Assembly: GCF_000244975.1 (NCBI RefSeq)
Contig: NZ_CM001440.1
Span: forward strand, 2,960,325 to 3,024,324
Source: Saccharomonospora cyanea NA-134
GTDB taxonomy: Bacteria > Actinomycetota > Actinomycetes > Mycobacteriales > Pseudonocardiaceae
Direction: 5' to 3'
DNA: 64,000 bases
The notes under the pieces were generated by a model. The model ran no database searches and had not been told where the DNA came from. It saw only the letters and a program-made list of their open reading frames with translations. Each line of letters opens with the position of its first letter. Position 1 is the first letter of the stretch. A program made the position numbers and the translations under genes. This document shows, piece by piece, positions 2,982 through 22,618 of the stretch.

Positions 2982-3099
2982 CGCGCCCTCCCGTACCCGG
3001 TCGCGCTCACGCTCGCCGCTTCCGCGGTGTGGTGTCAACGCGCCGCGAACGGCACCGGAAGTGTTGCCCGCACCGGCGCCGCACCTGATCGTGCGTGGC

Positions 3100-5481
3100 A
3101 TGGGTTGCATGGACAACGCGGCGACACCGCACGCGCCGCTGGCCGGTCTGCGGGTGCTCGAAGTGGCGACCGGTGTGGCGGGCCCGTACGCGGGGCGGCT
3201 GCTGGCGATGCTCGGCGCCACGGTCGTGAAGGTCGAGCCGGCCGAGGGCGATCCCGCGAGGACGATCCCGGTCGACGGCGGGCCGCAGGTCTCACCCAGC
3301 CCGCTGTTCGTCCACCTCAACGCGGGCAAACGCTCGGTCGGCGCGGAGTCGATCACGCCTGAGGAGGGTCTGGCGTGGGCCGACGTCGTGCTCAGCGACC
3401 GGGTCGCTCGGGACTTCGGACCGTGGGAGGACACCGGCTCGGTGGCGGACCCGCCGATGCTCGTCTCCGTCACGGCCTGGGGTACCGGCCACGACGACCC
3501 GGGCAGCCCCTCGGACGAGCTGCTCGTCCAGGCCGCGTCCGGTCTGCTGGCGGCGACGGAGCAGGACGGTCAACTGTGGCGTTTCCCCGGTTGGCAGTCC
3601 CAGTACCTCGCGGGCGCGTACGCGGCCGCTGCCGCACTCGCCGGTCTCGGCAGGCACGGCCGAGCCGAGGTGACCTGGGTCGGCGCGGCGCGCTCGGCGG
3701 TGGAGTGCCAGGCCGCGGCGACGCTGTACGGGGTCACCGCACCCCACGGCGACGAGCGCGAGGAGGAGGTGCGCCAGGCGGGTTTCCAGACGAACACCTT
3801 CCCCTCCGGCGCCTTCGCGTGCGCCGACGGCTACGTCGTGCCCGGCACGGTGCGCGGCAAGGACTGGACCACCCAGTGCGAACTGTACGGCCGCCCCGAC
3901 CTGGTGCTGGACCCGAGGTTCAGCTGGCGAGACCGCTGGCGCAACCGCGAGCAACTGCGCGCCGAGATCGCCGACTGGTATCTCGCCCGGACCCGGCGGG
4001 AGATCTTCGACCTCGCGTTGAAGTCGGGCTGGTCGGCAGGCATGGTGCTGTCCGCGCAGGACGTGCTCACCGACCCGCATCTGCGGGAACGCGGTTTCGT
4101 GGGCACCGTCTCCGGCGCGGCGCGGGGGCCGATCCCGGTGCGGCCCTGGCGGGTGGAGAACACCACCGCGCCCACCGTGGTGCGACTCGCCCGGCGCGGT
4201 GAGGACGACGGGTGGTTCCAGCCGCGCCGACCACGTTCCCGGCCACTGTGGCCCGTACGCAACGGTTTGCGTGTCGTGGAGCTGACCTGGGCGTGGGCGG
4301 GCCCGTTCGTGGGCCGGTTCCTGGCGAGTACCGGAGCCGACGTCATCAGGGTCGAGGCCGGCGCGCATCCCGACGGGTGGCGGACCCGGTTCCGCCTGCG
4401 GGACCTCGGAACAGCACCCGGTGAGCAGCACGCTCCCACCGACGTCACCTACGACGCCTCGGCACAGTTCAACAGCCTCAACCGCGGCAAGCGCGCCGTG
4501 TCGGTGGACCTGTCCCGGCCGGACGGGGCGCGGGTCTTCCGGGAGCTGGTCGCGGCGGCCGACGTGCTGGTGGTCAACATGAACCACCGCGTACTCGCCG
4601 ACCGTGGTCTGGACGGCTTCGTCCGCGAACAGGTGGAGCGCGGGCTCGTGCACATCACGATGCCCGCGCTCGGCGCGGTCGGCCCGGACCGCGCCATGCC
4701 GGGCTTCGGCATGCTCACGGAGGCCATGGGCGGTTTCGCGGCGAGGTTCGGTTCGCCCGGGGAGGGAGCTCGGACGAGCCCCACCTACTACCCCGACGCG
4801 GTCTCCGGCGTGCACGCCACCGTGGCCGTGCTGGCCGCGCTGGCCGCGCGCGCGGCAGGCGGTCCGGGCGCCGCCATCGATTTCTCCCAGCAGGAGGCCC
4901 TGTGGTTGCAGTTCGGCGAGGGTGTCGTCCTCGCGGGACAGCAGGGCCGCTCACCGGCCAGGCTCGGTAACGCGGAGCCGGGCGCGGCCGACGCCGGAGT
5001 GCTGTCGGCCGCCGACGGCCACCTCGCCTACGTGGTGGCCACGGAGCAACAGGCACGTGCCGTGCGCGAACTTCTCGAACGGGACGGTGGGACCGGTGGG
5101 ACAGCGCTGAGCGAGGCACTCACCGCGTGGGCGGCACACCGGGACACCGACGCCGTTCGCGAGGCGCTGCGCGCGGCCGGTGCCCGCTGCGTGGCCGTCC
5201 AGCACATTCGGTCGTTGTTCCACTCGGGCACGCTGGCCGCGCAGCGGATGCTCGAACTCGTCGACCACCCGGTGGCGGGAAAACGCGCCTACCTCGGTAT
5301 CCCGGTCGCCCTCGACGGCGAACCGTTGCGGGCGGACGGGCCCGCACCGATGTTCGACCAGCACACCGACGAGGTCCTCACCGAATGGCTCGACTACTCG
5401 CCGGAAAGGCTGGCGGCACTGCGAGGGGACGCGGCCATCGGCACGGTGCCGAAAGGCTCCCGCCCTCGCGCCCGCTCGTGA
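3100..5481 (+). CDS. Tandem-fused class III (CaiB/BaiF-type) CoA transferase
   Basis: About 793 residues, twice the normal size of a CaiB/Frc-type CoA transferase, made of two homologous halves (about 10-400 and 410-790). Each half opens with the family's N-terminal motif (RVLEVATGVAGPYAG and RVVELTWAWAGPFVG). The second half keeps the catalytic aspartate, D566 in YYPDAVSGVHA. In the first half the aligned residue is Q168 (WQSQYLAGAYA), so only one half should form the acyl-enzyme intermediate. The start is uncertain among ATG 3100, ATG 3109 and GTG 3091. It diverges from the flavin monooxygenase operon and converges on the acyl-CoA ligase. Likely moves CoA between carboxylic acids; substrate unknown. 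Fused steroid- and terpenoid-type CoA transferases of this size are known in actinobacteria. Confidence 0.88.
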   Translation: MGCMDNAATPHAPLAGLRVLEVATGVAGPYAGRLLAMLGATVVKVEPAEGDPARTIPVDGGPQVSPSPLFVHLNAGKRSVGAESITPEEGLAWADVVLSDRVARDFGPWEDTGSVADPPMLVSVTAWGTGHDDPGSPSDELLVQAASGLLAATEQDGQLWRFPGWQSQYLAGAYAAAAALAGLGRHGRAEVTWVGAARSAVECQAAATLYGVTAPHGDEREEEVRQAGFQTNTFPSGAFACADGYVVPGTVRGKDWTTQCELYGRPDLVLDPRFSWRDRWRNREQLRAEIADWYLARTRREIFDLALKSGWSAGMVLSAQDVLTDPHLRERGFVGTVSGAARGPIPVRPWRVENTTAPTVVRLARRGEDDGWFQPRRPRSRPLWPVRNGLRVVELTWAWAGPFVGRFLASTGADVIRVEAGAHPDGWRTRFRLRDLGTAPGEQHAPTDVTYDASAQFNSLNRGKRAVSVDLSRPDGARVFRELVAAADVLVVNMNHRVLADRGLDGFVREQVERGLVHITMPALGAVGPDRAMPGFGMLTEAMGGFAARFGSPGEGARTSPTYYPDAVSGVHATVAVLAALAARAAGGPGAAIDFSQQEALWLQFGEGVVLAGQQGRSPARLGNAEPGAADAGVLSAADGHLAYVVATEQQARAVRELLERDGGTGGTALSEALTAWAAHRDTDAVREALRAAGARCVAVQHIRSLFHSGTLAAQRMLELVDHPVAGKRAYLGIPVALDGEPLRADGPAPMFDQHTDEVLTEWLDYSPERLAALRGDAAIGTVPKGSRPRARS

Positions 5482-5483
5482 GC

Positions 5484-5514
5484 GCGGGGCGCCGCTCACC
5501 CGTCGGCGCCCCGC
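5484..5514. terminator. Bidirectional terminator hairpin between convergent genes
   Basis: GCGGGGCGCCG (5484-5494) pairs perfectly with CGGCGCCCCGC (5504-5514) around a 9-base loop. A second alternative stem GTGAGCG/CGCTCAC (5478-5499) overlaps it. It lies between the stops of the CoA transferase (+) and the acyl-CoA ligase (-). No T-tract follows, which is usual for high-GC actinobacteria. Confidence 0.6.
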
Positions 5515-6965
5515 ACGGCGGCCAGCATCGCCGCCAGTGCGGGGCGCGAAACCTTCCCGTTCGCGGTCATCGGCAACTCGGGAAGCCTGAGCACGTCGTA
5601 GGGTCGCTTGTCGTCCGAGATCCGGCCCCGCATCCAGTCCCGCACCTGGGCGGCGTCGAGGTCGGTGTCGCTGACCACCGCCGCCGCGACACGCTGTCCC
5701 CACACCGGGTCGGGCACACCGAACACCACGCACTCCCGCACGTCGGGATGCCCGCCCAGGACGGCCTCGATGTCGGCAGGCACCATGTTCACGCCACCAC
5801 TGATGATCATGTCGTCGGCACGTCCGGTCACGTGGACATAGCCGTCGGCGTCGACGAAGCCCACGTCACCGACGGTCTGCCAACCGCCGCCGGGAGCCTG
5901 CTCCTCGCGGCGAGCCGTGCCGAGCCGCTCGTCGCCGCCCACGTAGCCGTCGAAGGCGAGCGGTGTCCGCGCGTGCAGCACGCCCTCCTCCCCTGCTCCG
6001 AGGCGTCGCCCGTCGCGGAAAGCGGCCACCTCGACACCGTCGAACGGTCGCCCCGACGAGCCGGGGTGGTCGGCGAACTCGCGGGCGTGCAGCGCGGTCG
6101 TCGGCCCCAGTTCGGTGCTGCCGTAACACTCGACGAAGCCGGGCCCGAACAGGCGCACCGCTTCCCGCTTCAGCGCGTCGGGGAACGGCTCACCCGACAC
6201 CACGACGTGGGTGGGTGTGGGAAGCCGATCCCGCCGGTCCCGCCCCGCGCGGACCAGCCGTCGAAGCTGGGTGGGGGTGAGGAATCCGCTGTTCATGCCG
6301 TGCTCCGACGCGAAGTCCAGCCACGCCTCGGCATCGAACCCGCGTAGCAGTCCGACGGTGCCGCCTCGGGACAGGGACATCAGCGCGCACGTCCAGGGGC
6401 CCGAATGGGTCAGCGGTCCGGACACGAGGAAGCGGGTTTTCGCCCCGAGACCGAAGCCGTTGGCGATCCGCTCGGCGAGGCGCCGGTCGCCCCTCGTCCG
6501 CAGCGCTGCCTTGGGGCGGCCGCTCGTGCCCGACGTGAACAGCAGGGACGCGCCCGCGCCGAGCCGGTCGGTGTCACCGGTCGGCTCGGCGCGGGCCGCC
6601 ACGAGCCCGGCCCCCTCCGGCAGCGGTTCGGTCACGTCGAGCACCGGCACCCCGTCCGCCACGTCCTGGACCCGCTGTCGCTCGGCACCGTCCACGACGA
6701 TCACGGCCGGTGCGGCGACCGCGATCCGGCCCGTCAGTTCCTCCGCCGTGCACCGCCGCCCGAACGCCACCACGGGGGCGCCGAGTCCGCGAGCGGCCAG
6801 CGCGACGGCGAGCACCTCGGCGCGGTTGGCCATGATCCAGCCCACCCGTCCCGAAGGCCCCGCCCCGTGCGCGGCGAGTGCCGTGGCGAACCGGTCCACC
6901 ATCTCGTCGAGTTCGCCTCGGGTGAGGGTGCGATCGACCTCCACCACGGCCGGCGTCTCCGTCAT
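5496..6965 (-). CDS. AMP-dependent acyl-CoA (or acyl-ACP) ligase
   Basis: A 489-residue ANL-superfamily adenylating enzyme. It has the P-loop LFTSGTSGRPKAA (about 165-177), the A5 motif YGSTELGP, the A7-type TVGDVGFVDADGYVHVTGR, and the C-terminal catalytic lysine in NGKVSR. It is slightly shorter than typical fatty-acyl-CoA ligases because of a trimmed N-terminus. It is the last gene of the 14-gene KS/ACP unit, 58 bases after the thiolase. A tandem 10-base repeat (CCGTCCCGGA) covers 7001-7020, next to the thiolase stop. It probably activates a carboxylic-acid starter or the finished chain as an adenylate, then thioesterifies it to CoA or to the cluster ACP; which acceptor is used cannot be told. 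Confidence 0.88.
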   Translation of the reverse strand: MTETPAVVEVDRTLTRGELDEMVDRFATALAAHGAGPSGRVGWIMANRAEVLAVALAARGLGAPVVAFGRRCTAEELTGRIAVAAPAVIVVDGAERQRVQDVADGVPVLDVTEPLPEGAGLVAARAEPTGDTDRLGAGASLLFTSGTSGRPKAALRTRGDRRLAERIANGFGLGAKTRFLVSGPLTHSGPWTCALMSLSRGGTVGLLRGFDAEAWLDFASEHGMNSGFLTPTQLRRLVRAGRDRRDRLPTPTHVVVSGEPFPDALKREAVRLFGPGFVECYGSTELGPTTALHAREFADHPGSSGRPFDGVEVAAFRDGRRLGAGEEGVLHARTPLAFDGYVGGDERLGTARREEQAPGGGWQTVGDVGFVDADGYVHVTGRADDMIISGGVNMVPADIEAVLGGHPDVRECVVFGVPDPVWGQRVAAAVVSDTDLDAAQVRDWMRGRISDDKRPYDVLRLPELPMTANGKVSRPALAAMLAAVRGADG

Positions 6966-7023
6966 ACCTGTCCCCTGTCGTCGGATCCGGCCTGTCTAGC
7001 CCGTCCCGGACCGTCCCGGACCG

Positions 7024-8163
7024 TCACAGCCGCTGCAGCACCGTGGCCGTACCGAGTGATCCTCCGCAGCACATCGTCACGAGCGCGTGCTCGCGGTCGC
7101 GCCTGCGCAGTTCGCCGAGCGCGGTGGCGACCAGCCGGGCTCCGGTGGCTCCCATCGGGTGCCCGAGCGCGATCGCTCCCCCGTTGACGTTGACGCGGTC
7201 GAGATCGGCGCCGGTGCGCTCGACCCACGACAACACCACACTCGCGAACGCCTCGTTGACCTCCGCGAGGTCGAGGTCGGCCAGCGCCATCCCGGTCCGG
7301 TCGAGCACCGCCCGGGTCGCGTCGACGGGGCCGTCGAGCAGGTAGTACGGATCGGCCCCGACGAAGGTGTGCCCCACCACGCGGCCGATCGGGCGAAGGC
7401 CGAGTGCTTGTGCCCGCTCGGCCGACATCCACAGCACGGCCGCGGCTCCGTCCGACACCTGCGAGGTGGTCGCGGCGGTGTGCAGGCCCTCCCGCAGGGT
7501 CGTCCGCAACGTCGCCAGGGTCTCCGGCGTCGAGTCCCGGATTCCCTCGTCCTCGGTCACCACGCCGTTCGGGGTCTCCACCGGCACGATCTCCTCGGCG
7601 AACACGCCACGGTCGCGAGCCGCCGCGGCGAGGCGTTGCGACCGCACCCCGAAGGCGTCGAGCTGCTCCCGGGTGTGGCCCTGCCTGCGGGCGATGCGTT
7701 CGGCACCCCCGAACTGCAGGCCCGGCGGGTCGTCCCAGGGGTAGTCGTCGGTCTGGTAGTCACGCTTGCCACCGGGAATGTTCGCTCCCGCGGGCACGCG
7801 GCTCATGCTCTCCACACCGCACGCGATGCCGAGGTCGAGCACCCCCGCGTCGATCTGCGCGCGGATCAGCTCGTTCGCCTGCTGCGCCGACCCGCAGCTG
7901 GCGTCGATCGTGAGGCACGGCACCGTGTGGTCGAGCCCGGTGGACAGCCACGCGCAGCGGGTCACGTTGAACCCCTGCTCGCCGACCTGGGTCACGCAGC
8001 CGCCGACGATCTGCTGCACGGCGGACGGTTCGAGACGGTTGCGGCGCAACAGCTCCAGGAGCACGGTCCGCAACAGCTCGGCGGGGCGCATTCCGGACAG
8101 CACACCGCCGCGCTTGCTGATCGGCGTCCGCACCGCGTCGACGACGACGGCGCGGGAGGTCAT
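7024..8163 (-). CDS. Thiolase (acetyl-CoA acetyltransferase family)
   Basis: A 379-residue thiolase with the nucleophilic cysteine in IDASCGSAQQA (about residue 87), the histidine in GGAIALGHPMGATGAR and the second cysteine in CCGGSLGTA, so all three catalytic residues are present. Length is normal. The ATG at 8163 overlaps the stop of the isomerase gene (ATGA); the longer open frame upstream is antisense noise. It could carry out the degradative thiolytic step on a beta-ketoacyl-CoA or a condensing step. The DASCGSAQQA context is the type found in FadA5-like and acetyl-CoA acetyltransferase thiolases of actinobacteria. Confidence 0.9.
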   Translation of the reverse strand: MTSRAVVVDAVRTPISKRGGVLSGMRPAELLRTVLLELLRRNRLEPSAVQQIVGGCVTQVGEQGFNVTRCAWLSTGLDHTVPCLTIDASCGSAQQANELIRAQIDAGVLDLGIACGVESMSRVPAGANIPGGKRDYQTDDYPWDDPPGLQFGGAERIARRQGHTREQLDAFGVRSQRLAAAARDRGVFAEEIVPVETPNGVVTEDEGIRDSTPETLATLRTTLREGLHTAATTSQVSDGAAAVLWMSAERAQALGLRPIGRVVGHTFVGADPYYLLDGPVDATRAVLDRTGMALADLDLAEVNEAFASVVLSWVERTGADLDRVNVNGGAIALGHPMGATGARLVATALGELRRRDREHALVTMCCGGSLGTATVLQRL

Positions 8164-8858
8164 CCGCAGCCTCCCGCCGTGTCGGTGTCGTACGCACCGA
8201 CCAGGTCCCGCACGGCCGCCGGCGCGGGTGGCACCTCGGGCACAGGCTCGCCGGTCAGCGCGGCCACGAAGTCGTCCACCCGGTCCAGCCCCCAGAACCG
8301 CTCCCGTCCGATCCGGAAGTACGGCACCCCGAACACGTCGTCCTCGTACGCCCGCACCAGCGCCTCGGTGCCCGCCTCGCGCAGCCGGGGATCGTCGGGC
8401 GCGGCGACCAGTTCGTCGCCGGGCAGTCCCGCCGCCTCGGCCACCGCCCGTACCACCTCGGGCGTGCACACGTTCTCCCCGCGCTCCCACCGGGCGGCGG
8501 TGATCCCGGCGTAGAACTGCGCTCCCCTGCCGAGTTCGGTCGCTCGGATCCACGCGAGATGCGGCAGTTCCCACCACGGGTCCACGTCGACGGGCCACGT
8601 CATGGTCAGCCCGTGCTTGCGGACCTGGCGCCGCACGTCGTAGAGGATGTACAGGTGCTTGGCCTTGCTCATCTGCTGGTAGTGGAAGTCGGCGCCACGC
8701 TCGTGCAACGCCGCCGTGGTGCGCTCGTCCGGGTCGTAGTACGGCAGCAGCTCCACCCTCTCGGTGAGATCGGGCACGGCGCCCAGCAGCTTCGTCATGG
8801 CGATCCAACTGAACGGGCTGCGGAAGGAGAAGTGCACCCGTGGCCTGCGTGCGCTCAC
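8160..8858 (-). CDS. DsbA-fold isomerase, 2-hydroxychromene-2-carboxylate isomerase-like
   Basis: A 232-residue thioredoxin-fold (DsbA/kappa-GST) protein. Near the N-terminus it reads FSFRSPFSW, with serines where oxidoreductases have CxxC; this SPFS pattern belongs to HCCA isomerases, which use a thiol cofactor for cis-trans isomerisation. GVPYFRIG near residue 190 is the usual cis-Pro loop (GVPxF). It overlaps both neighbours by 4 bases. In actinobacteria the thiol would be mycothiol rather than glutathione (inference). Within a KS/ACP operon it may isomerise double bonds in a polyene intermediate, or act in degradation of an aromatic unit; the sequence does not decide. Confidence 0.8.
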   Translation of the reverse strand: MSARRPRVHFSFRSPFSWIAMTKLLGAVPDLTERVELLPYYDPDERTTAALHERGADFHYQQMSKAKHLYILYDVRRQVRKHGLTMTWPVDVDPWWELPHLAWIRATELGRGAQFYAGITAARWERGENVCTPEVVRAVAEAAGLPGDELVAAPDDPRLREAGTEALVRAYEDDVFGVPYFRIGRERFWGLDRVDDFVAALTGEPVPEVPPAPAAVRDLVGAYDTDTAGGCG

Positions 8859-9751
8859 CGGCCCTCACCTCGCCGCAGCGTCTCCACCGTCTCCTCGTCC
8901 AGCTCCGCGAGCTGACCGACGGACTCGCCGCGGGTCACCGCGTAACCGTGCAGGATCGTGCCCGCCGCCACCAGCCTGGTGTGGTCTCCCTCGACGACGT
9001 GACAGGTCATGCGGCCGTCGAACGCGCGCCCGGCCACGATGTCGTCCACGGCGAACGTGGTTCGGACGACGTCGTCCATGCGCGCCTCGCCGTACACCGC
9101 GACCCTGGCCCTCGACACGACCGGGATCCAGCCACGCTCGGCGAGCAACCTCGGCACCGACAGGCCGACCGCGGCGAGGTAGCGGTCCACCGCCTCCTCC
9201 ATCGCCGCCACGTACGTCGAGTGCTGCACGACGTCCGAGTAGTGGCAGTGGAAGTAACGCGCCGTCCAGTCCCAGGAGAACTCCCCCGGCCGTCCCGCGA
9301 TCTCCTCGGAGGCGACCGGGGAGGTGAGCAGCGCCCGCAACTCCTCGGGCACCTCGGCACCGTGGCGCTCGGCGGCCGCCTCCGGGACCAGTGCCACCGT
9401 GAGCCTGCCCCGCAACACCCGCGCAGGGCTCTCACCACCGGTCCGCAACCGCACGGTGAACGTGGCGCCGCCGGTGCGGGTGACCTCGGCGGTCACCTCG
9501 TCGTCCACCTCCAGTGTGGCGGGCAGCAGCACGGAGGAGTCGAGCACGCGCAGCCCGACGCCGTACTCGTGGAACAGCCGCTGCGGGCCGAGATCCCGCT
9601 CGCGGAACCAGCCGAGCACGGCCTCCTGCGCCAGCTGCATGAACTGCTTGAACCCGATCCACGTGCGGATGTTGGCGCTCTCGTAACGAGGGCGCAGGTG
9701 CGTGACGACACTGCGCTCCTCCACCTCCCGCGCGAGCGGTTCAGCGGTCAT
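8855..9751 (-). CDS. Double hot-dog acyl thioesterase-like protein
   Basis: A 298-residue protein apparently built from two 4-hydroxybenzoyl-CoA-thioesterase-type hot-dog domains. The N-terminal half has YESANIRTWIGFKQFM and the second half HYSDVVQHSTYVAAMEE (about 175-192), which fits the family pattern of an Asp near a His followed by Y and E on the long helix. It overlaps the hydrolase and isomerase genes by 4 bases on each side. Likely releases an acyl chain from ACP or CoA; FadM/YbgC-like thioesterases (ApeK) have that place in aryl-polyene clusters. Substrate is inferred from context only. Confidence 0.75.
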   Translation of the reverse strand: MTAEPLAREVEERSVVTHLRPRYESANIRTWIGFKQFMQLAQEAVLGWFRERDLGPQRLFHEYGVGLRVLDSSVLLPATLEVDDEVTAEVTRTGGATFTVRLRTGGESPARVLRGRLTVALVPEAAAERHGAEVPEELRALLTSPVASEEIAGRPGEFSWDWTARYFHCHYSDVVQHSTYVAAMEEAVDRYLAAVGLSVPRLLAERGWIPVVSRARVAVYGEARMDDVVRTTFAVDDIVAGRAFDGRMTCHVVEGDHTRLVAAGTILHGYAVTRGESVGQLAELDEETVETLRRGEGR

Positions 9752-10545
9752 CGGTCTTCGCTCCTTTCGGCTCGGTGTGCGGTGGGTGACGCCGCGAACC
9801 GCGTCAGCAGCTCGGCAACCTGTTCCGCATGCCGGATGTGGCAGAAGTGGTCGAACTCCGCATGCCAGGTCAGGGTCGCGTCCGGCAGCGCGCCGGTGAG
9901 CCTGGACAGCTGCGCGCGGGACGCGCCGGGATCGCGCTCGCCCGCGACGACGAGGACCGGGATGCCGAGCGACTCCATGGGAAGGTGCCCGCTCGCCACG
10001 TACTGTTCGAAGACGGCCAGAAAGCCCGTCAACCCGATCCGCTCGAACACCTTGTCGGTCATCGACTCGACGAGCGCCTCGCCGATCCGTTCGAGTCGTC
10101 CGCCGAGCCGCGCCCGCACGGCCTCCCGCATCTGGAACTCGAACGCCTCACGGGAACGGTTCCAGGTCCGCCAGGTCGGACGGGGCTCCGGAGCACGGTA
10201 GAACGGAACGATCATCGCGAGTGCTCCCGCGCCGCAGTACTCCCGTGCCACCGCCTCCAGCGACGCGTTCGCCCCGAACGAGTGGCCGACCAGCAGGTCG
10301 GGTTTGCGGTCGAGCCGGTCGAGACCGGTCGCGATCCACGACGCGGGCGGCGCGGTCCACCGCCAGCCGTAGTCGTTGCCCGCGCGCCAGGGCATGTCGA
10401 GCGCCACGGTGTCCCAGCCGTCACCGAGTGACTCCGACACGGACCGCCACGAGCGCCAGTCGTCCTCCAGCCCGTGCACGAACACGGCCAGGGGGCGATC
10501 CGGCCGCGACGGGCCGAGCCGCTTCGGACGTACCTCGGCGTTCAT
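9748..10545 (-). CDS. Alpha/beta-hydrolase
   Basis: A 265-residue alpha/beta-hydrolase. The nucleophile elbow is VGHSFGAN (serine near residue 92), the acidic residue probably lies in VAGERDPGAS, and the histidine in the C-terminal EFDHFCHIRH. FVHGLEDDW is the N-terminal oxyanion-hole HG motif. The start at 10545 overlaps the upstream KS-like stop by 4 bases (ATGA) and its own stop overlaps the thioesterase start the same way. There is no signal peptide, so it is cytosolic. It may be a second releasing enzyme or an editing hydrolase for the ACP line. Confidence 0.85.
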   Translation of the reverse strand: MNAEVRPKRLGPSRPDRPLAVFVHGLEDDWRSWRSVSESLGDGWDTVALDMPWRAGNDYGWRWTAPPASWIATGLDRLDRKPDLLVGHSFGANASLEAVAREYCGAGALAMIVPFYRAPEPRPTWRTWNRSREAFEFQMREAVRARLGGRLERIGEALVESMTDKVFERIGLTGFLAVFEQYVASGHLPMESLGIPVLVVAGERDPGASRAQLSRLTGALPDATLTWHAEFDHFCHIRHAEQVAELLTRFAASPTAHRAERSEDR

Positions 10546-11423
10546 CCGCGCCCCGCGGTGATCCGGGTGGAGCGGAAACCCTCTTCCGGAGCACCACACA
10601 CCGCGGTGATCGAACGCACCGTGGAGTCGGCGGCGACGACGGCCGCCGCGACGGCGACCTGGAGCACACCCTCGGCGCCGTAACCGCGCCCTCCACTCCC
10701 AGTGTCCACTGTGACTCTCCCGTGTGTTGTCGAATCGGCGAAGAGCCCGCTGTCGTGTGCGGTGGACTCGACCATGACGTCGTGCAGGAACGCTCCGCCG
10801 TCCTCGGCGTGCCCCGCTGCCTCCAGTACGACGCAGGCCGCCACCGGCACCCCCGGCGCACCGGTGGCGCGGGTGAGCAGGGCGTCGGTCACCTCGTCGC
10901 GTGGCTCGACACCCACCACGACGACCCGGCCGGCCCGGCCGGACAGCAGCAGCAACCTGCCCAGCCCGACGGCGTCGAGTCCCGAGGAGTGGCCCGAACA
11001 GACGGTCAGGTTCGGACCGCCGAACCGGAACCAGATCGCCACCGTGGAGGCGATCACGTTGCTGGACGCGTTGGGCGCATCGAGCGGGCTCACCGCACGC
11101 ACGCCGCCGTCGCGCAGGGCGGTACCGAGCCCGGCCACGGTCGCGACGTTGCCGAGGTTGGAGCTGACGATCACCGCGGTGCGCGGATCCATCTCCTCCG
11201 CCGAGCGGCGCGGTGCCCGCTCCGGGAGGCCGAACGCCCGGTGCACCGCGCACAACGCCATCCTCGTCGCCGGTTCCTTGGCCAGCAGTCCCTTGCGCCC
11301 GAGCAGTTCGGCGGCGCGTTCCGGAGGCGGGACGGGGTCCGGCTCCCAGTGTTCCGTGCGCGTACCGGGGACCGGCTCGGGAAGGCACACCGCCCGCCGG
11401 GTGATCGCGACCAGCCGGTTCAC
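10542..11423 (-). CDS. Truncated ketosynthase-like (chain-length-factor-like) protein
   Basis: A 293-residue protein related to the N-terminal thiolase-fold half of beta-ketoacyl synthases but without a usable active site. In NLTVCSGHSSGLDAV the position of the catalytic cysteine is H145, and the two C-terminal catalytic histidines are absent. GPNLTVCSG and ASNVIASTVAIWF keep the dimer-interface look of the fold. It overlaps the upstream, fully catalytic KS gene by 4 bases, an arrangement typical of KS/CLF heterodimers; short KS-like partners such as ApeC occur in aryl-polyene clusters. Non-catalytic partner of the adjacent KS is the best hypothesis. Confidence 0.75.
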   Translation of the reverse strand: MNRLVAITRRAVCLPEPVPGTRTEHWEPDPVPPPERAAELLGRKGLLAKEPATRMALCAVHRAFGLPERAPRRSAEEMDPRTAVIVSSNLGNVATVAGLGTALRDGGVRAVSPLDAPNASSNVIASTVAIWFRFGGPNLTVCSGHSSGLDAVGLGRLLLLSGRAGRVVVVGVEPRDEVTDALLTRATGAPGVPVAACVVLEAAGHAEDGGAFLHDVMVESTAHDSGLFADSTTHGRVTVDTGSGGRGYGAEGVLQVAVAAAVVAADSTVRSITAVCGAPEEGFRSTRITAGRG

Positions 11424-12544
11424 GCTGCCACCTCCGGAGCGGCCAGCAGGGTGACGGCGTTGACCCCACCGAAGCCGAAGGCGTTGACCTGCGCCACCCT
11501 CACCGGCAGCGGCACCTCGGCGGGGTGGGCGAACCGGAACCCGTCCGCCTCCCCGATCGCCTCACGCAACCCGACGACACCCGGTACCCGGCCCGCTCGC
11601 ATCGCCCGCATGGCGACGTCGACGTTGACCAGCGCCGCCGCGCCCGAGGTGTGCCCGACCGCGCCCTTCACCCCGGTGAGCACGGGGCGGCGCGGCCCGG
11701 AGAAGACGCGCCGCAACGCGCGGAGCTCGGCGGGATCGTTCTGTTCGGTTCCCGTGCCGTGGGTGACGACGAGATCGACCTCCTCGGCACCCACCCCCGC
11801 TCGCGTGAACGCGTCCCGCATCGACCGCACCATGCCCGCCACGTCCGGGGCGGTCTCGTGGTGCGCGTCGCAGCACAACCCGGTGGCGAGCAGTCCCGTT
11901 TCTCCCGGCCCGGCGGTCCCGGCCGCGACGACCACGGCGGCGGCGCCCTCGCCGAGCAGCACACCCGTGCGGTTTTCGTCGAAGGGCCGCACCTGTGTCG
12001 TCGGAGCCGGCGTGACCCGCCCGATCATCGCGAGCATCGACGCCGTCATCACGTCGGTGCCCGCCGCGACCACCCGCTCGGCGGCACCGGAGTCGACCAG
12101 GTCCTGGGCCAGCGCCAGCGCGTGACCGGACGCACTGCAGGCGTTCGACAACGTGATCACCGGGCCCAGTCCCTCGCCCAGCTCGGCGAGGCAGGGGCCG
12201 AAGTGCAGCCGATGCAGTTCGAGTTCGTCCCTGCCCTCGGCCCACCGCTCGACGGCACGCAGTTCGCGAAGGCCGGTGCCGACCACGACGGGCACGCGCT
12301 CGGTTCCGGCGTCCACACCGGCGTCCGCCAGCGCACGCGCCACGACGGAGGTCAGCAGCCGGCTCGCACCGTATCGGGGCTCGGGACCGTCGTCGGCCGG
12401 GTGATAGGCTCGCGTCACGTTGACCGAAGCAGCGTCGACGTGCCGTAGTGGCCCCACTCCGCTACGACCCTCGAGGAGCGCTCCGAACGTGGCGGCGCCG
12501 TCGCCGAAGCAGGTGCGCACGGCGCTAGCGACGATGCGCGCCAC
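11420..12544 (-). CDS. Beta-ketoacyl-ACP synthase (active type), first KS pair
   Basis: A 374-residue KAS I/II-type ketosynthase with a complete Cys-His-His site: C136 in SNACSASG, H262 in THGTGTEQND and H298 in GAVGHTSGAA. NAFGFGGVNA near the C-terminus is the standard glycine-rich loop. It is about 30-40 residues shorter than FabF, mostly in the N-terminal half. Its first 20 bases overlap the end of the upstream KS-like gene, and its last 4 overlap the downstream KS-like gene. Catalyses decarboxylative condensation of malonyl-ACP with an acyl chain; likely heterodimerises with the 293-residue KS-like protein. Confidence 0.88.
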   Translation of the reverse strand: MARIVASAVRTCFGDGAATFGALLEGRSGVGPLRHVDAASVNVTRAYHPADDGPEPRYGASRLLTSVVARALADAGVDAGTERVPVVVGTGLRELRAVERWAEGRDELELHRLHFGPCLAELGEGLGPVITLSNACSASGHALALAQDLVDSGAAERVVAAGTDVMTASMLAMIGRVTPAPTTQVRPFDENRTGVLLGEGAAAVVVAAGTAGPGETGLLATGLCCDAHHETAPDVAGMVRSMRDAFTRAGVGAEEVDLVVTHGTGTEQNDPAELRALRRVFSGPRRPVLTGVKGAVGHTSGAAALVNVDVAMRAMRAGRVPGVVGLREAIGEADGFRFAHPAEVPLPVRVAQVNAFGFGGVNAVTLLAAPEVAA

Positions 12545-13640
12545 GCGACCATCCCCTCACCACGGTGGCCCCGACGGCCCCGTCGGGCGAGTGCGAGACC
12601 AGTATCGAGAGTTCCCCGTCACGCTCGGGGCTGTCCCGGTGCCGTCCGAGGACCGCCGTCAGGTCCAGCGCGGCGGTCGCCGAACCGCAGTCACCGGCGT
12701 GTGCCTGCGTCGTGAGGCACTCCGGCTTCGGCGAACCCGCGGCGGCCAGCTCGCGGCACACCTCACGCCACATCGCCCTGTCCTCCCGTTCGTCCGCGGT
12801 GGGACGGACCCATGCGGCGGTGACGCCCTTGCCGAGACCGGCGCCCGCACGCTCGGCCGAGGCCAGCGCCCGGCGCACACAGCCACCCAGCGCGGCGGGC
12901 CGGTCGGCGAACGTGGCCGAGAAACCGAGCGCCACCCCGAGGATCTCGGCATCCGGGTCGGTCCCGCCCCCCGTGGAGAGCGCGAACATCGCACCGCCCT
13001 CCCCCGGATACGTGGCCGGTGGCAGTCCCGCGGTGCGGGCCAGCCACGCCGCGTGCGGACTGAGTTCGTCGATGACACCGGCCAGCAACATGTCGACCTG
13101 CCCGGTGCGGAGCAGGTTCGCGCTGTAGCGCAGCACGCTCATCAGTGCCATGGCGCCACCTGCGATGGTGGCGTTGACACCCCGCAGCCCGAACCAGATC
13201 GCCGCCTGTCCCGCCGCGCAGTTCATCACGGTCGTCGGGAACAGGCCCGCGTTCACCATGTACGGCCGTTCCTGGACGAACGTGTCCACGGCGTAGTCGA
13301 CGGAGGACCGCACACTGCCCGCCGTGGTGCCGAGCACGATGCCGATCCTCGTCGAATCGAGCGTGCCGAGATCGATGCCCGCGTCCTCGAGCGCCTGCCT
13401 GCACGCGACGACGGTCAGCCCGGTCCTGCGGTCGAAGAAGCTCGTTCCCTTGCGACCGAGCTCGGTCCGGATGTCGAAGTCGCTCACCGTGAGACCGGGT
13501 CCGCCGGGCAACGACTCCGGGTCCGTTTCCTCCGTGTTCCCGGGAACAGCCGCGGGACCGCGCAGTGCCGCCGCGAGTTCCGTCGGTGTCCGCCCGGCGG
13601 CACTCAGCGTGCCCACCCCGGTGATGGCCATGGTGTTCAT
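12525..13640 (-). CDS. Chain-length-factor-like ketosynthase homologue, active site lost
   Basis: A 371-residue ketosynthase homologue. VMNCAAGQAAIWFGLRG (about 138-153) shows it belongs to the KAS I/II fold, but the nucleophile region reads NATIAGGAMALM, with Ala163 at the cysteine position. The final catalytic histidine is also missing: QAHAGDCGSA stands where active enzymes have GH near the Lys-x-x-x-GH motif. It overlaps the active KS upstream by 4 bases, the usual arrangement for a KS-alpha/KS-beta pair. Predicted to control chain length or dimer geometry rather than condense. Confidence 0.82.
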   Translation of the reverse strand: MNTMAITGVGTLSAAGRTPTELAAALRGPAAVPGNTEETDPESLPGGPGLTVSDFDIRTELGRKGTSFFDRRTGLTVVACRQALEDAGIDLGTLDSTRIGIVLGTTAGSVRSSVDYAVDTFVQERPYMVNAGLFPTTVMNCAAGQAAIWFGLRGVNATIAGGAMALMSVLRYSANLLRTGQVDMLLAGVIDELSPHAAWLARTAGLPPATYPGEGGAMFALSTGGGTDPDAEILGVALGFSATFADRPAALGGCVRRALASAERAGAGLGKGVTAAWVRPTADEREDRAMWREVCRELAAAGSPKPECLTTQAHAGDCGSATAALDLTAVLGRHRDSPERDGELSILVSHSPDGAVGATVVRGWSRGAHRR

Positions 13641-14842
13641 GAGGCCGCTCCGAGCATCACGATCGCGTTGTTGCCGCCGAAGGCGAAACCGTTGTTCTGG
13701 ACGACGCGGACCTTCGCCTCGCGGTGCTGGTTCGGGATCGGGTCCAGCCAGGGCATTTCGGGGTCGCGGGTGGACCAGTTGATGGTGGGCGGCAGGAACC
13801 CGCGCGCGACCGCCAGCACGGAGGCGATGGCACCGAAGCCGCTCGCCGCTCCCATCGTGTGACCCAGCATCGACTTGATCGAGCTCACCGGAGGCACGTC
13901 ACCGTCGAACACCTCTCGGAGTGCGCGTGCCTCGGTGAGGTCGTTGGCCGGGGTTCCCGTCCCGTGCGCGCACACGTAGTCCACGTCCCCCGGCTCCACA
14001 CCGGCGTTCGCGTGTGCGGCACGCATGCAGTCGGCGATCGAACCCGCGTCCGGTGTCACCATGTGGTTGGCGTCGCAGTTGGACGCGTAACCGAGGAACT
14101 CCGCGTAGGGCACGGCACCGCGCCCGCGCGCGAAATCGGCCGACTCCAGCACCAGCACGCTGCCGCCCTCGGCGGTCACCATTCCGGCGCGGTCCCGGTC
14201 GAACGGGGTACACGCCTCGCCCGCCACCGCGCCGAGCCGCAGGAACCCGGCATGCGCCCAGCGGCAGACCGAGTCGGCACCACCGCTGAACACGACGTCG
14301 GCCTCACCACTGGTGATGAGGTCGTAGGCGTAGCCGAGTGCGTAGTTGCTGGCGGAGCAGGCCGTCGCGATGGTCATCGACTCACCACGCGCGTCCAGCT
14401 CCGCGCTGACCGCCGCGGAGAGCCGGTCGGCGGGCAGGTTCTGAGCGATCTCGTCGGGAACGGCGTCGAAGCCGCCCTCGGCGAGATACTGTCCGTACAG
14501 TTCCGTGGCCTTCGCCTCGCCGCTCGTGGTCCCGATGACCACCGCCACCCGGTCGAGGTCGAGCCGTTCCCACTGCAGGCCCGCGTCGCGCGCGGCGAGG
14601 CGGGCCGCCGCGGCGGCGAACTGGCTCGACCGGCCCCACTCACGGGGATTGATGCGCCGCAGGATCGAGTCCGGATCGAACGCCCGAACCTCTCCGGCGA
14701 GGATCCGGGGAAAGCCGGTCGTGTCGAAACTGGTGATCGGTGCGATGCCGCAGTGCCCCGCGCGCAGCCCGCTCTCGAACGCGGCGGCACCGATGCCGAT
14801 GCTCGACACCGGGCCGATTCCCGTGATCACTGCGCGGGTCAT
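13637..14842 (-). CDS. Beta-ketoacyl-ACP synthase (FabF-type), second KS pair
   Basis: A 401-residue FabF-like ketosynthase with an intact triad: C162 in ATACSASN, H293 in AHGTGTPAND and H328 in SMLGHTMGAAS. NNGFAFGGNNA closes the fold. Starting at ATG 14842 leaves 2 bases after the ACP stop; the alternative ATG 14857 would overlap the ACP by 13 bases. It is the most FabF-like of the four KS homologues and overlaps the dead KS-like gene downstream by 4 bases. Likely the main chain-extending enzyme, working on the ACP encoded immediately upstream. Confidence 0.9.
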   Translation of the reverse strand: MTRAVITGIGPVSSIGIGAAAFESGLRAGHCGIAPITSFDTTGFPRILAGEVRAFDPDSILRRINPREWGRSSQFAAAAARLAARDAGLQWERLDLDRVAVVIGTTSGEAKATELYGQYLAEGGFDAVPDEIAQNLPADRLSAAVSAELDARGESMTIATACSASNYALGYAYDLITSGEADVVFSGGADSVCRWAHAGFLRLGAVAGEACTPFDRDRAGMVTAEGGSVLVLESADFARGRGAVPYAEFLGYASNCDANHMVTPDAGSIADCMRAAHANAGVEPGDVDYVCAHGTGTPANDLTEARALREVFDGDVPPVSSIKSMLGHTMGAASGFGAIASVLAVARGFLPPTINWSTRDPEMPWLDPIPNQHREAKVRVVQNNGFAFGGNNAIVMLGAAS

Positions 14843-14844
14843 GC

Positions 14845-15099
14845 CTACACGCGCCATCCGGCGTAGTTCGCCGCCACCGTGAAGACCGAGTCGAAGTTGC
14901 GCATGGTCGCCAACTCCTGCTGCGGAATCTCTACCTTGTACTTACGTTCGATGCGCGCCAGCATCTCGATCGCGCGCAGCGAGTCGCCGTCGTAGTCCTC
15001 GGCGAAGTCTCCGTGATCGGTCAGCTCCTCCGGCTCGATCTCCAGCACGTCCGCGACCAGCTCGCGCAGTTCGGCCTTCCGCTCGTCCACATCGGTCAC
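14845..15099 (-). CDS. Acyl carrier protein
   Basis: An 84-residue acidic acyl carrier protein. The phosphopantetheine site is S40 in YDGDSLRAIEM, a variant of the usual DSL motif, with the expected four-helix length on either side. Start is GTG 15099, preceded by the ribosome site AAGGAG at 7 bases. It is the only ACP in the window, so all four KS homologues, the ketoreductase and the two dehydratases presumably share it. It lies 45 bases after the FabZ-like gene and 2 bases before the FabF-type KS. Confidence 0.93.
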   Translation of the reverse strand: MTDVDERKAELRELVADVLEIEPEELTDHGDFAEDYDGDSLRAIEMLARIERKYKVEIPQQELATMRNFDSVFTVAANYAGWRV

Positions 15100-15144
15100 C
15101 GCAACGCTCCTTGTCCTGTCGACTTCCCGTTCGTGCGAGGGGAA

Positions 15145-15624
15145 TCAGTCCGCTCGTCCCCGGTTGGTGGCGGTCGCGGTGACCGCCATCAACTCGCCGA
15201 ACGCCGCAATCGTGCACCCGCCCACGGCCGTATGCCCAGAAACGATGGCGGTGTTCGGACCGGAGTGTTCGAGTCGCACGTGGTGGCGCAGCACGTCACC
15301 CGGGTAGGCCCGCCCGAGGAACCGGCAGTCGCGGATCACCGCCAGCATCGGCACGACCCCCGTCGCGGTGAGGTCCGCGTCGTGGGTGGCCCGCCAGAGC
15401 AGTACGGCCGACTGTCCGAACGACTCCACCACCAGCGAGGACGGAAACGCCCAGGCGGTGTTCGCGGCGGTGCCGTCCAGCGCCTCGTAGCACGGCTCGC
15501 TCAACGTGACCGCCTTCGTCGCGACGAGCTCGCGCCCGGGCACGAGATGGTCGACGGCGTCGACGAGCACCATCGGATGCCCATGCGGGAGTAACCGGTG
15601 GAGATCAGCGTGCCCCGGTGTCAC
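15145..15624 (-). CDS. FabZ-like hot-dog dehydratase subunit (Glu kept, His lost)
   Basis: A 159-residue hot-dog protein of the FabZ family. LLPHGHPMVLVD at residues 11-22 matches the N-terminal PHRxPFLLVD signature, and E67 in VVESFGQSA is the catalytic glutamate. However, the stretch that should be GHFPGxPVxPG reads GTAANTAWAFPSS, so the catalytic histidine is missing (Ala53 by counting back from the glutamate). The start is GTG 15624, in a GTGA overlap with the upstream second dehydratase, which has the complementary pattern. The pair probably works as a heterodimer, as HadA/HadB or ApeI/ApeP do. Confidence 0.8.
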   Translation of the reverse strand: MTPGHADLHRLLPHGHPMVLVDAVDHLVPGRELVATKAVTLSEPCYEALDGTAANTAWAFPSSLVVESFGQSAVLLWRATHDADLTATGVVPMLAVIRDCRFLGRAYPGDVLRHHVRLEHSGPNTAIVSGHTAVGGCTIAAFGELMAVTATATNRGRAD

Positions 15625-16031
15625 GGCGCCTCCTGGTGTCCGAACACGGCGCGGATGGTGGCGAATCTCTCCCCGTGGCCGGTGAAGACGGCCCGGACGG
15701 TGCGGGGGCGTCCCGGCTCACCACGCGGCACGCGAACCGACAGCTCCACGGTGTCGCCGTCGCGGGCCGGGGTCGTGAACCGCGCCGACTCTACTCCGAG
15801 CAACCGGCTGTTCTCCGGCAGGACGGCGAGGACGGCACGTTCCAGCAGATCGAGCAGGAACACCCCCGGGTACACGGGGTTTCCCGGGAAGTGGCCCCCC
15901 AGGTACCTGTCGGCGGGGTCCACACGCACCTGTGCGGTGACCGTGGTGCCGTCGTCGTCGGGTACCGCGTCGAGCCGCCGGAGGACGACCGGGGACGCCG
16001 CTGGGGGCGGCAGCGGAGACGGCGGGTTCAC
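15621..16031 (-). CDS. FabZ/FabA-like hot-dog dehydratase subunit (His kept)
   Basis: A 136-residue hot-dog protein with the canonical active-site loop [12 protein letters not shown] (histidine near residue 43). Fourteen residues later FabZ enzymes have Glu; here it is Asp (FLLDLLERA). Start is GTG 16031, in a GTGA overlap with the ketoreductase stop; the longer open frame upstream is antisense to function. The following gene encodes the FabZ-like protein that has Glu but no His. Together they could provide one complete dehydratase site for 3-hydroxyacyl-ACP, giving trans-2-enoyl chains; no enoyl reductase gene is in the operon, so the double bonds may be retained. Confidence 0.82.
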
Positions 16032-16774
16032 AGCACCATCCCGCCGTCCACGGCGAAGACCTGACCGGTGATGTAGGAGCTTTCGTCGGAGAGCAGGAAC
16101 GCCACCAGCGGGGCCACGTCGTCCGGCCGTCCGAACCGGCGCAGGGGAATGGCGGCCAGTGCCTTGTCCTGGCCCTTCGCGGGCAGCGCCGAGGTCATCT
16201 CGGTGTCGATGTACCCGGGGGCGACGACGTTCGCGCGCACACCCGCCCTCGCCGTCTCCTTGGCCAGCGACTTGGTGAGCCCGATGATGCCCGCCTTCGA
16301 GGCGGCGTAGTTGCTCTGCCCCGCGTTGCCGTGGACGCCGGCGATGGAGGAGATGTTGACCACCGCTCCCGCGCGGCGCTTCAACATGCGGAACACCACC
16401 GCCCGGCAGACGTTCCACGTACCGGTGAGGTTCGTGTCGAGCACGGTGCTCCATTCCTCGGGCGACATCATCACCGTGTTCGCGTCGCGGGTGACGCCCG
16501 CGTTGTTCACCAGTGCCGTGATCGGTCCCAGCGCGTCCTCGGCTTCGGTCACGAACCGGCTCACGGCATCGGCGTCACGGACGTCGCACGGCTGGAAGAA
16601 GGTCCTCGCACCGGCTTCGGCCAGTTCCCGCTCCACGCGCGCCGCGTCCTCACCGCGCTGCCTGAAGCAGCCCGCGATCCGGTAGCCGTCCCGTGCCAGC
16701 CGCAGCGCGACCTCCCTGCCGATGCCCCTCGCCGCGCCGGTCACCAGCGCGCAGGGCTCCCCTGCGCCGGTCAC
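16028..16774 (-). CDS. 3-oxoacyl-ACP reductase (FabG-like SDR)
   Basis: A 248-residue short-chain dehydrogenase/reductase of classical FabG size. The NADP(H)-binding motif is VTGAARGIG near the N-terminus, NNAG lies about residue 86, and the catalytic set is S in NISSIAG plus YAASK. VDGGMVL closes the protein. Start is GTG 16774, overlapping the regulator stop by 4 bases (GTGA). Reduces the beta-keto group on the ACP-bound chain made by the KS pairs. Confidence 0.92.
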
Positions 16775-17952
16775 AGTGCCTGCTCCCTCTGCTCGGGTGC
16801 CGAGGCCAGCAACGCTCGGCGCGCCTCGGGGTCCTCCAGCTGGTTCGCCAAGGAGATCCACTCCGCCGCGACCTCCCTCGCGAGTTGGGCGACCCGCCCG
16901 GTGAGGTGCTCGGGAACAGAGCGGATCAGCGACTCGCACTCGTCCGAGTTGACCACGTGGGCCCGGAACCACATCAACAACGCTCTCCCGGACTGGGTGA
17001 ACCGCAGGCGCGGGTCGTGCGCGAGCGTGGCGAGCATCGCCGTCGGATTCCGCCTGAACCGGCCCTGCTTGACCGCCACGGCCTGAATGGACGGAGTTCG
17101 GCGCTCTTCGGTGTTCTCCTCCGTGGGCTGCTCCTGCTGTCGGCAGTGCCAGCCCTGCTCCGCCTCCCGCAGCCGGGCGGGAACCGGGTCCTCGTCACGT
17201 TCGAGTCGCATTCGGACGTCTCTGGCGGTCGCCGGGGAGATACCGGCGCGGCGGGCGACCTCCCGCAACGACGCGTTCGGCCGCTCAGCGAACAGCATGC
17301 TCGCGATCCGGCGTCCTTGAGCGCTGTTGACCGGTCGGGCGCGCCCGTCGGAGCCGATACGCACGGGCTCGTCCGCGTCACCGATGAGCTGCTGCCGCAG
17401 TGAGCTGACGGTCTTCGGGGACAGACCGGCGGTCTTGGCGATGCACCGGTCCGACAGGTGTGGCTGGGCCGTGAGGATGCGCGAGGCCGCGGCCCGGCGG
17501 TCGGCGAGGGTGAGCGGCAGCCCGTGGCTGACGTTCATGGTCACCGCCAGGCGGAAGGCGTCCGCCTCGGCTCCCTCGAAGAACCTGACCCGGATCCGGT
17601 CCTCACCACGGATGACCGCGGCGCGCATGCGGTGCATGCCGTCGACGACGCGCATCGACGACCGGTGGACGATGATGGGCGGAAGGCTCCCCCCGAGTTC
17701 CGCGAGCACCTCGGTGTGGTGGTTGTCCTCTCCGGACAGACGCGGCGAATCCGCAGGACGCAACAGGTGGATGGGCACCCACTCGGGCTCGCTCAACAGC
17801 GAGCACAGCGCGTCAGGGGATCCGTCTATGGGCCGTGCCGGTTCAATCCGACCAGCGTCGACCCTTCCGGTAATTGCATCCAAGGCCGTGTCCCCCGGCT
17901 CCAGCTGACGACAATCGGTGACACGCCGAATAGTTGTCGAGAAGGAGCTCAC
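16771..17952 (-). CDS. StrR-like ParB-domain pathway regulator
   Basis: About 393 residues. An N-terminal ParB-like domain (roughly 55-160) contains [18 protein letters not shown] and the typical variant of the ParB box. Two helix-turn-helix segments follow: [21 protein letters not shown] and [20 protein letters not shown], linked by [12 protein letters not shown]. This layout is that of the StrR/NovG/Tei15-type activators of antibiotic clusters rather than chromosome-partition ParB. Start is GTG 17952 or TTG 17958; neither has a clear ribosome site. It is the first gene of the KS/ACP unit, and an inverted repeat with StrR-site geometry lies about 117 bases upstream, so it probably activates its own operon. 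Confidence 0.85.
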
Positions 17953-18332: not shown

Positions 18333-18497
18333 AATTCACACGAATTTCACGGCGGTCGGCTTTCGGGCACGCCGCTGCTCGGGGAACGGATTCGTGGTCG
18401 GTGATGGCGACGTCCGGTCCTGTGCACGGTCCGGTCCTGTGCGCGAGTGCGCAGCAACCGTACCCCCCGCCGAGCACGCTGTCGTACGGTCGCCGCC

Positions 18498-19634: not shown

Positions 19635-19646
19635 GAGCCGGTGAGC

Positions 19647-21637: not shown

Positions 21638-21847
21638 TCAGTCGACCTGCTCGTGCCGCGGGGTTCCGTCGATGGTCTGCGCAGGCAGGGAGCAGACGCC
21701 GCCCACACACATACCCGCGTCCGAGACACCGACCGGAACGAACGGGCCGACGACCCCGGCGGGCCCCGCCTGTTCCCCGGAGCCGCCGATCGGCTGGGAC
21801 TCCTCCATGGTGGCGGCCGTTTCCGGCCTCGCGTGTGACTCCGTCAC
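21638..21847 (-). CDS. Small coupled ORF, unknown function
   Basis: A 69-codon frame starting with GTG in a GTGA overlap with the stop of the FrnE-like gene, hence likely translated by coupling. Third positions are almost all G or C, as in real genes here. The product is acidic and Gly/Pro-rich and has one cysteine pair in GMCVGGVCSLP (C47, C52). No membrane segment or signal peptide. I do not recognise a family. It could be a small thiol-containing partner of the oxidoreductase, or an accidental frame. Confidence 0.45.
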   Translation of the reverse strand: MTESHARPETAATMEESQPIGGSGEQAGPAGVVGPFVPVGVSDAGMCVGGVCSLPAQTIDGTPRHEQVD

Positions 21848-22500: not shown

Positions 22501-22618
22501 ACCGGGGACAACCCGGCACTCACCGTGACTATTCCCGGCCGCTCCGACCGGCCGTGGACACCCCGCTTTCCGGGGCCGCTCCCGCGGCCTGTCCCGGATG
22601 GGTCGGTAGTCTGGGCGG

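Follow-up and report, generated by a model that had tools for sequence, protein, structure and literature searches.

The closest described relatives of the system considered here are the highly reducing type II polyketide synthases (PKSs) of o-dialkylbenzene and cinnamoyl lipids (Zhang 2021 JACS; youssoufene, ysf; globisporamic acid, gla), which share pairs of ketosynthase (KS) and chain-length factor (CLF), a ketoreductase (KR), a split dehydratase (DH), an acyl carrier protein (ACP), a DsbA-fold isomerase and a hydrolase. The skyllamycin, WS9326A, kitacinnamycin and epoxinnamide clusters likewise combine a type II PKS (KS/CLF pairs, KR, DH, isomerase) with a non-ribosomal peptide synthetase (NRPS). 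In kitacinnamycin genome mining, the isomerase Sky27, the ketosynthase Sky17 and the ketoreductase Sky26 served as probes for cinnamoyl-forming type II PKSs (PMC6510318), and epoxinnamide (PMC9321520) as well as globisporamic acid and youssoufene (PMC9381841) depend on these components too, including two or three KS/CLF pairs. Here, we analyzed a 14-gene operon at positions 5496-17952, minus strand, of a 64,000-nucleotide stretch of the Saccharomonospora cyanea NA-134 chromosome (the window; NZ_CM001440.1, 2,960,325 to 3,024,324). The operon is very probably a highly reducing type II PKS of this cinnamoyl/o-dialkylbenzene branch, and we hold with equally high confidence that it belongs to an NRPS cluster.

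The four ketosynthase homologues counted in an initial annotation of the sequence are all present, but only two of them look catalytically competent. KS1 (13637..14857) and KS3 (11420..12544), as well as their relatives, keep the Cys-His-His triad, whereas KS2 (12525..13640) and the shortened KS4 (10542..11423, 293 aa) have lost all three positions; the operon therefore encodes two active-type ketosynthases and two CLF-like partners, KS2 being the putative partner of KS1. In a PDB search, the best match of KS1 was the ishigamide ketosynthase Iga11 (358 bits) and that of KS2 was its CLF Iga12 (113 bits), in agreement with the reducing type II PKS proposed initially. The structural model of KS4 (predicted local distance difference test, pLDDT, 92.6) suggests a shortened ketosynthase fold near Iga12. 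Although Iga11-Iga12 are the closest solved structures for KS1/KS2, the ishigamide enzymes form a separate clade in the KS tree, and the second KS/CLF pair, a double hot-dog protein and a thiolase set the present operon apart. Profile matches further revealed discrete KR, DH and ACP genes and no enoyl reductase within the operon. Together with the two KS/CLF-type pairs and the DsbA-type isomerase gene, these parts correspond to those of the cinnamoyl/o-dialkylbenzene branch.

The KS tree comprised 133 ketosynthases and was obtained by a quick search, with support from the Shimodaira-Hasegawa-like approximate likelihood ratio test (SH-aLRT) only and with some long branches that meet. KS1 and KS3 of the window each fell into a single clade with those of other thiolase-containing clusters (SH-aLRT 98 and 100). 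The sister group is formed by clusters like that of Streptomyces rugosispiralis, whose loci show a similar 12-gene order. For this species an antiSMASH list names 'o-dialkylbenzene, 61%' (PMC10525797), and we infer from its gene content that locus L093 is the cluster in question. The FabF of S. cyanea lay far outside, and a KS of the spore-pigment type from this genome was also placed outside, so that grouping of the operon with primary type II fatty acid synthase (FAS II), which the initial annotation had named as evidence against its reading, is ruled out. That FabG, FabZ and thiolase belong to widespread housekeeping families might still suggest a primary-metabolism fatty-acid synthase or a catabolic operon mistaken for secondary metabolism. 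Such an explanation is hardly credible and already refuted by the KS tree and by the patchy distribution of the DsbA gene, which occurs in 2 of 12 Saccharomonospora genomes; the synteny with an NRPS also speaks against it. The aryl-polyene-like character assumed initially is not supported, as KS relations and gene content point to the cinnamoyl/o-dialkylbenzene branch instead. Among the profiled or inspected cluster genes there was no ammonia lyase, ApeR-type third KS or membrane-anchoring gene, though no lyase-directed search was made.

KS3 and KS4 also bear a distant likeness to the cispentacin enzymes AmcF-AmcG, raising the question of whether they might form a five-membered ring as a cispentacin/coronafacic-type ketosynthase-cyclization factor pair. 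KS3 matches the AmcF model with 166 bits, KS4 matches AmcG weakly (29 bits) and a dehydratase of the operon matches AmcE with 44 bits; moreover, KS4 is shortened like AmcG (PMC10698177). All three scores are, however, well under the curated cut-offs (325, 80 and 140, respectively), the remaining gene content differs, and the same KS3/KS4 pair is present in o-dialkylbenzene- and cinnamoyl-type clusters. We thus rejected membership in this type on the scores and regard five-membered ring formation as very improbable.

The 14 genes lie where they had first been placed and show a high coding signal at third codon positions (GC3). Nine of the 13 junctions are 4-bp ATGA/GTGA overlaps, as initially reported for most of them; at two others the genes overlap further, by 13 and 20 bp, and at the remaining two they are separated by short gaps (45 and 58 bp). 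The whole operon is found in the same gene order, at 59-83% protein identity, in Qaidamihabitans albus, a member of a different genus, which argues against a chance arrangement. Gene families were assigned by Pfam/NCBIfam profile matches. The first gene (16771..17952) encodes a regulator with a ParB-like N-terminus, found by reading the sequence, which is the sole support for its initial description as StrR-like; no StrR profile matched, and only a weak HTH_24 match was obtained. It is followed by a FabG-like 3-oxoacyl-ACP reductase (16028..16774), the FabA/FabZ-like dehydratase half HDa (15621..16031), the FabZ-like half HDb (15145..15624; 64 bits to FabZ) and the ACP (14845..15099). In a Kibdelosporangium persicum relative, the homologues of HDa and HDb are contained in one 283-aa open reading frame (ORF; L050:11281-12129), which supports the idea that both halves act as a pair. 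Downstream of the ketosynthase genes are an alpha/beta hydrolase with a GHSFG nucleophile motif (9748..10545), a protein with a double hot-dog acyl-ACP thioesterase fold (8855..9751; model pLDDT 91.9; FatA/2OWN-like, template modelling score ~0.6), the DsbA/HCCA-isomerase-fold protein (8160..8858), a thiolase (7024..8163) and, by profile match, an acyl/aryl-CoA ligase of the ANL family (5496..6965). The thiolase carries active-site C/H/C motifs by reading, and its best NCBIfam match is steroid 3-ketoacyl-CoA thiolase (529 bits, cut-off 515). It had been noted as an unexpected gene and is indeed the unusual component.

The DsbA-fold protein, in contrast, which had not been associated with the systems considered initially, is an established part of cinnamoyl/o-dialkylbenzene clusters (PMC6510318, PMC9381841, PMC9321520) and represents a candidate polyene E/Z isomerase of the Sky27/EpcL/YsfG type, of which YsfG has been described as a glutathione-dependent cis-trans isomerase (PMC9381841). 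Since DsbA-family genes are also present in the limocrocin and colabomycin clusters (PMC11727611), such a gene alone is no proof of ring closure. The protein might then merely tune double-bond geometry in a linear, non-aromatized polyene acid, which thiolase, dehydrogenases and P450 would convert into a dicarboxylic or hydroxylated polyene; that no aromatizing oxidase was identified is in line with this. We consider a linear product rather improbable, as two KS/CLF pairs, the isomerase and the gene content fit the ring-forming branch (PMC9381841, PMC9321520), and regard it as fairly likely that the PKS product forms a ring. Three genomes of one genus (G150, G097 and G188, e.g. locus L052) carry two different DsbA-type isomerase genes per type II PKS cluster. 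A second, ordinary DsbA-domain protein of the S. cyanea window (21844-22644; 142 bits to DSBA) is located outside the cluster and is unrelated to the isomerase.

The operon had been treated as self-contained. It is, however, half of a combined type II PKS and NRPS cluster that spans ~64 kb (~2,917-2,981 kb of the S. cyanea chromosome) and is cut by the window edge. In Q. albus, the closest relative (G058 = L083), synteny extends from the operon regulator through the NRPS block, far past the window start. Conserved beyond the window start are a peptidyl carrier protein (PCP), an O-methyltransferase, a type II thioesterase, a saccharopine-dehydrogenase-like protein, two NRPS proteins, an aryl-AMP ligase, a fatty-acyl-AMP ligase (FAAL), a P450 and a thiazolinyl imide reductase (TIGR01761, 313 bits). 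Further upstream, P450s, O-methyltransferases, a luciferase-like monooxygenase (LLM) protein, a condensation (C)-domain protein, a beta-ketoacyl-ACP synthase III, a KstD-like FAD dehydrogenase and a LuxC-like protein are also conserved.

NRPS2 has the organization carrier-Cy-A-PCP-Cy-A-PCP and NRPS1 docking-Cy-A-PCP-TE-like, where Cy denotes heterocyclization, A adenylation and TE thioesterase domains. The Cy motifs are present, and the three A-domain codes, read from motifs rather than by a specificity predictor, are DLYNLSLIW (twice) and DLFNLSLIW (once), all for cysteine. With its aryl-AMP ligase, aryl carrier domain, Cy domains, cysteine codes, PchG/Irp3-like reductase and type II thioesterase, this half resembles the pyochelin, watasemycin and yersiniabactin NRPSs; it differs from them in that no salicylate synthase was found, a 12-gene type II PKS being present in its place, and in that the ligase pocket is altered (see below). 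The PKS adjoins the NRPS as in clusters for cinnamoyl-containing peptides, but gene order differs from the skyllamycin type in the relatives compared, and the long C-domain line of those systems is replaced by an aryl-AMP ligase and a short cysteine line of the Cy type. No starter condensation domain for a cinnamoyl-ACP is present at the NRPS2 N-terminus, where a carrier domain is followed by a Cy domain instead. The terminal thioesterase-like domain of NRPS1 (C-terminus of L082:4905-9143) shows AYDLAG at the expected GxSxG position and, judged from this motif, may be inactive or Asp-using.

Between the NRPS half and the operon, the window starts with a cytochrome P450 (1..1078, minus strand; 416 aa, extending ~172 bp beyond the window start), which is conserved alongside the PKS. 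It is followed by a class II aldolase-fold, NovR-like protein (1084..1839, minus), an LLM-class (SsuD-like) flavin monooxygenase (1839..3008, minus) and a two-domain CaiB/CoA-transferase family III protein convergent with the operon (2908..5481, plus; longest ORF, true start probably ~2990). On the other side of the operon are the larger (18447..19634, plus) and the partner subunit (19641..20657, plus) of an acyl-CoA dehydrogenase. The genes on both sides of the operon belong to the same conserved cluster; relatives from Micromonospora, Salinispora and Amycolatopsis have the dehydrogenase pair within it, and Q. albus at its far end. NovR was the second-best PDB match of the NovR-like protein, with a full-length alignment of 230 bits. 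The metal-ligand motifs HxH and NHG are retained, and similarity and three-His site place it with NovR/CloR as a candidate non-heme iron chain-shortening oxygenase. CloR and NovR, the benzoate-forming oxygenases of clorobiocin and novobiocin, form hydroxybenzoate via two oxidative decarboxylations (PMC13111500), whereas nothing in the present cluster indicates a tyrosine-derived arylpyruvate substrate. The combination of NovR-like protein, CoA ligase, acyl-CoA dehydrogenases and thiolase suggests that a cinnamoyl-type side chain is shortened to an aryl acid; we see the chances of such trimming by the thiolase and NovR-like steps as evenly balanced. The nearest analogy is found in plants, where cinnamoyl-CoA is converted to benzoyl-CoA by beta-oxidation, and P450 hydroxylation then gives the salicyl group (PMC12408352).

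These enzymes recur together with the PKS in dozens of actinobacteria from soil and the sea. We scanned 84,980 species genomes with a DsbA alignment and kept the best 80 of 321 relatives as loci. A thiolase was found within 10 kb in 31 of the 80 loci, 27 of which also carry a NovR-like gene (at least 60% identity), 28 a P450 and 29 the ligase. Among the 49 loci without thiolase, each of these three genes was found in five, which are the same five loci; they belong to the same subtype, and their thiolase may be located beyond the sequence span or have been relocated. The extra set of thiolase, NovR-like protein, ligase, P450 and CoA transferase is present in Micromonospora, Salinispora, Planotetraspora, Catelliglobosispora and Amycolatopsis, accompanied by the dehydrogenases, LLM protein and aryl-AMP ligase where flanks are long enough. 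Aryl-AMP ligase (56-62%) and FAAL genes were found in the neighbourhoods of Micromonospora lupini, Salinispora fenicalii and M. phaseoli, and likewise near the loci of Planotetraspora, Catelliglobosispora, Amycolatopsis rubida and one Micromonospora isolate. Several of these seven long neighbourhoods also show a thiazolinyl imide reductase and an NRPS. In the Amycolatopsis keratiniphila group we found the PKS, thiolase, NovR-like protein, a ligase-P450 fusion, dehydrogenases and a divergent ligase, while the expected Cy-NRPS half was not found in the stretch read. A single 963-aa ORF of an Amycolatopsis relative (G183:C1:6469317-6472208, L042) comprises acyl ligase and P450 homologues, suggesting that both act in sequence. 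Hence, compared with o-dialkylbenzene and cinnamoyl-lipid systems, the clusters add thiolase, NovR-like protein, P450, CoA transferase, acyl-CoA dehydrogenases and a Cy-NRPS half, and no free-lipid logic is apparent. The PKS itself is a further member of a known branch; its conserved combination with a thiolase, a NovR-like protein, a P450 and an NRPS line for cysteine thiazolines is a variation that we did not find in the accessible literature.

The aryl-AMP ligase of the NRPS half has the salicylate ligase CahJ as its best PDB match (571 bits). In 11 cluster-borne homologues the pocket carries Ala for Tyr/Phe236, Gly for Ser239 and Cys for Ser240, while a second S. cyanea ligase retains the canonical pocket. 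The latter belongs to a separate 2,3-dihydroxybenzoate (DHB) siderophore locus ~44-53 kb upstream of the window start (G000:C1:2907753-2915933), which encodes an ABC importer, an isochorismatase, a canonical DHB-AMP ligase and an isochorismate-synthase-type protein. No salicylate synthase (TIGR03494) scored above the curated cut-off in any of 10 genomes, which leaves the cluster without a sign of chorismate-derived salicylate supply. The A236/G239/C240 pocket was rejected as a private mark of PKS-linked clusters: among the 30 best family-level homologues, three genomes without a DsbA gene share it. Two of them, Saccharomonospora G128 (G128:C5:79348-95353) and G161 (G161:C2:7743725-7762639), contain Cy-NRPS clusters with a thiazolinyl imide reductase and the altered pocket, and the third is G186. 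The altered pocket therefore need not recognize a PKS product.

This observation bears on how the two halves are connected. The PKS might make a separate acyl chain, a polyene or o-dialkylbenzene acid, which is loaded by the FAAL onto a free carrier and joined to the peptide by a condensation protein, while salicylate- or DHB-type acids would enter independently through the aryl-AMP ligase. In favor of this, the cluster has conserved genes for a FAAL, for free PCP/ACP proteins and for stand-alone C domains, the pocket subtype is found without the PKS, and the DHB locus is nearby. Two separate entries are nevertheless unlikely: they leave unexplained why thiolase, NovR-like protein, ligase and P450 track the PKS clade, and no salicylate synthase scored above the cut-off in the 10 genomes mentioned above.

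The explanation that we favor overall, at about an even chance, is that an aryl acid made by the PKS is trimmed and caps a cysteine thiazoline peptide. According to this model, KS1/KS2, the ketoreductase, the paired dehydratases and the ACP would assemble a polyene from malonyl units, and the DsbA-fold isomerase would install a Z double bond. KS3/KS4 would lengthen the chain before 6-pi electrocyclization closes the ring and oxidation yields an alkenyl-aryl acid of the cinnamoyl/o-dialkylbenzene type, to be freed by the double hot-dog thioesterase and/or the hydrolase. Its side chain would then be trimmed by the CoA ligase, the two acyl-CoA dehydrogenase subunits, the thiolase and the NovR-like protein, and the resulting aryl carboxylic acid might be hydroxylated by the P450/LLM enzymes. 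Finally, the salicylate-type aryl-AMP ligase would load the acid onto the N-terminal carrier domain of NRPS2, and three Cy-A(Cys)-PCP modules would add thiazoline/thiazolidine rings. A candidate for the aromatizing enzyme, by family relationship, is the FAD dehydrogenase noted above (G000:C1:2936854-2938473, L196:10954-12573), which is related to 3-ketosteroid dehydrogenase and the ring-desaturating ChcC1/ChcC2. Of the clusters compared, those of S. cyanea and Q. albus alone contain it.

Several points weigh against this model. A complete beta-oxidation would also require an enoyl-CoA hydratase and a 3-hydroxyacyl-CoA dehydrogenase, but dedicated enzymes of these kinds were not identified, nor was an aromatizing oxidase, for which the KstD/ChcC-like FAD protein, the P450s and the acyl-CoA dehydrogenases are candidates. 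The NovR-like family is broad, with 53-66% homologues in ~25 other genomes of the host's family, and the A/G/C pocket in G128, G161 and G186 occurs without a nearby DsbA-type PKS or without a DsbA gene. The separate DHB locus could supply aryl acids, and FAAL with free carrier proteins offers an alternative entry for the PKS product. Moreover, no described product of a thiolase-type cluster was found in the accessible literature, which does not cover subscription journals. The link from PKS to cap is thus unproven, and we put it forward tentatively, as the pocket occurs without the PKS, the NovR-like family is broad and the two beta-oxidation enzymes were not identified. Still more cautiously, we propose that the aryl cap may be chorismate-independent: an electrocyclized PKS ring, trimmed and hydroxylated by thiolase, NovR-like and P450 steps to a substituted salicylate-type acid, would start the cysteine thiazoline NRPS, with the PKS half as a portable module in dozens of actinobacteria.

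Overall, our results delineate a coherent and widespread sub-branch within the reducing type II PKSs that is apparently uncharacterized; its members are accompanied by chain-trimming enzymes, and several of them also by a thiazoline NRPS. If the aryl cap is PKS-derived, bacteria would have a polyketide-based equivalent of the route by which plants obtain salicylates from cinnamoyl-CoA through beta-oxidation. In that case, aryl-capped peptides of a new class, which may bind metals, could also be mined in culturable strains such as Salinispora fenicalii CNT-569 and Micromonospora lupini Lupac 08.

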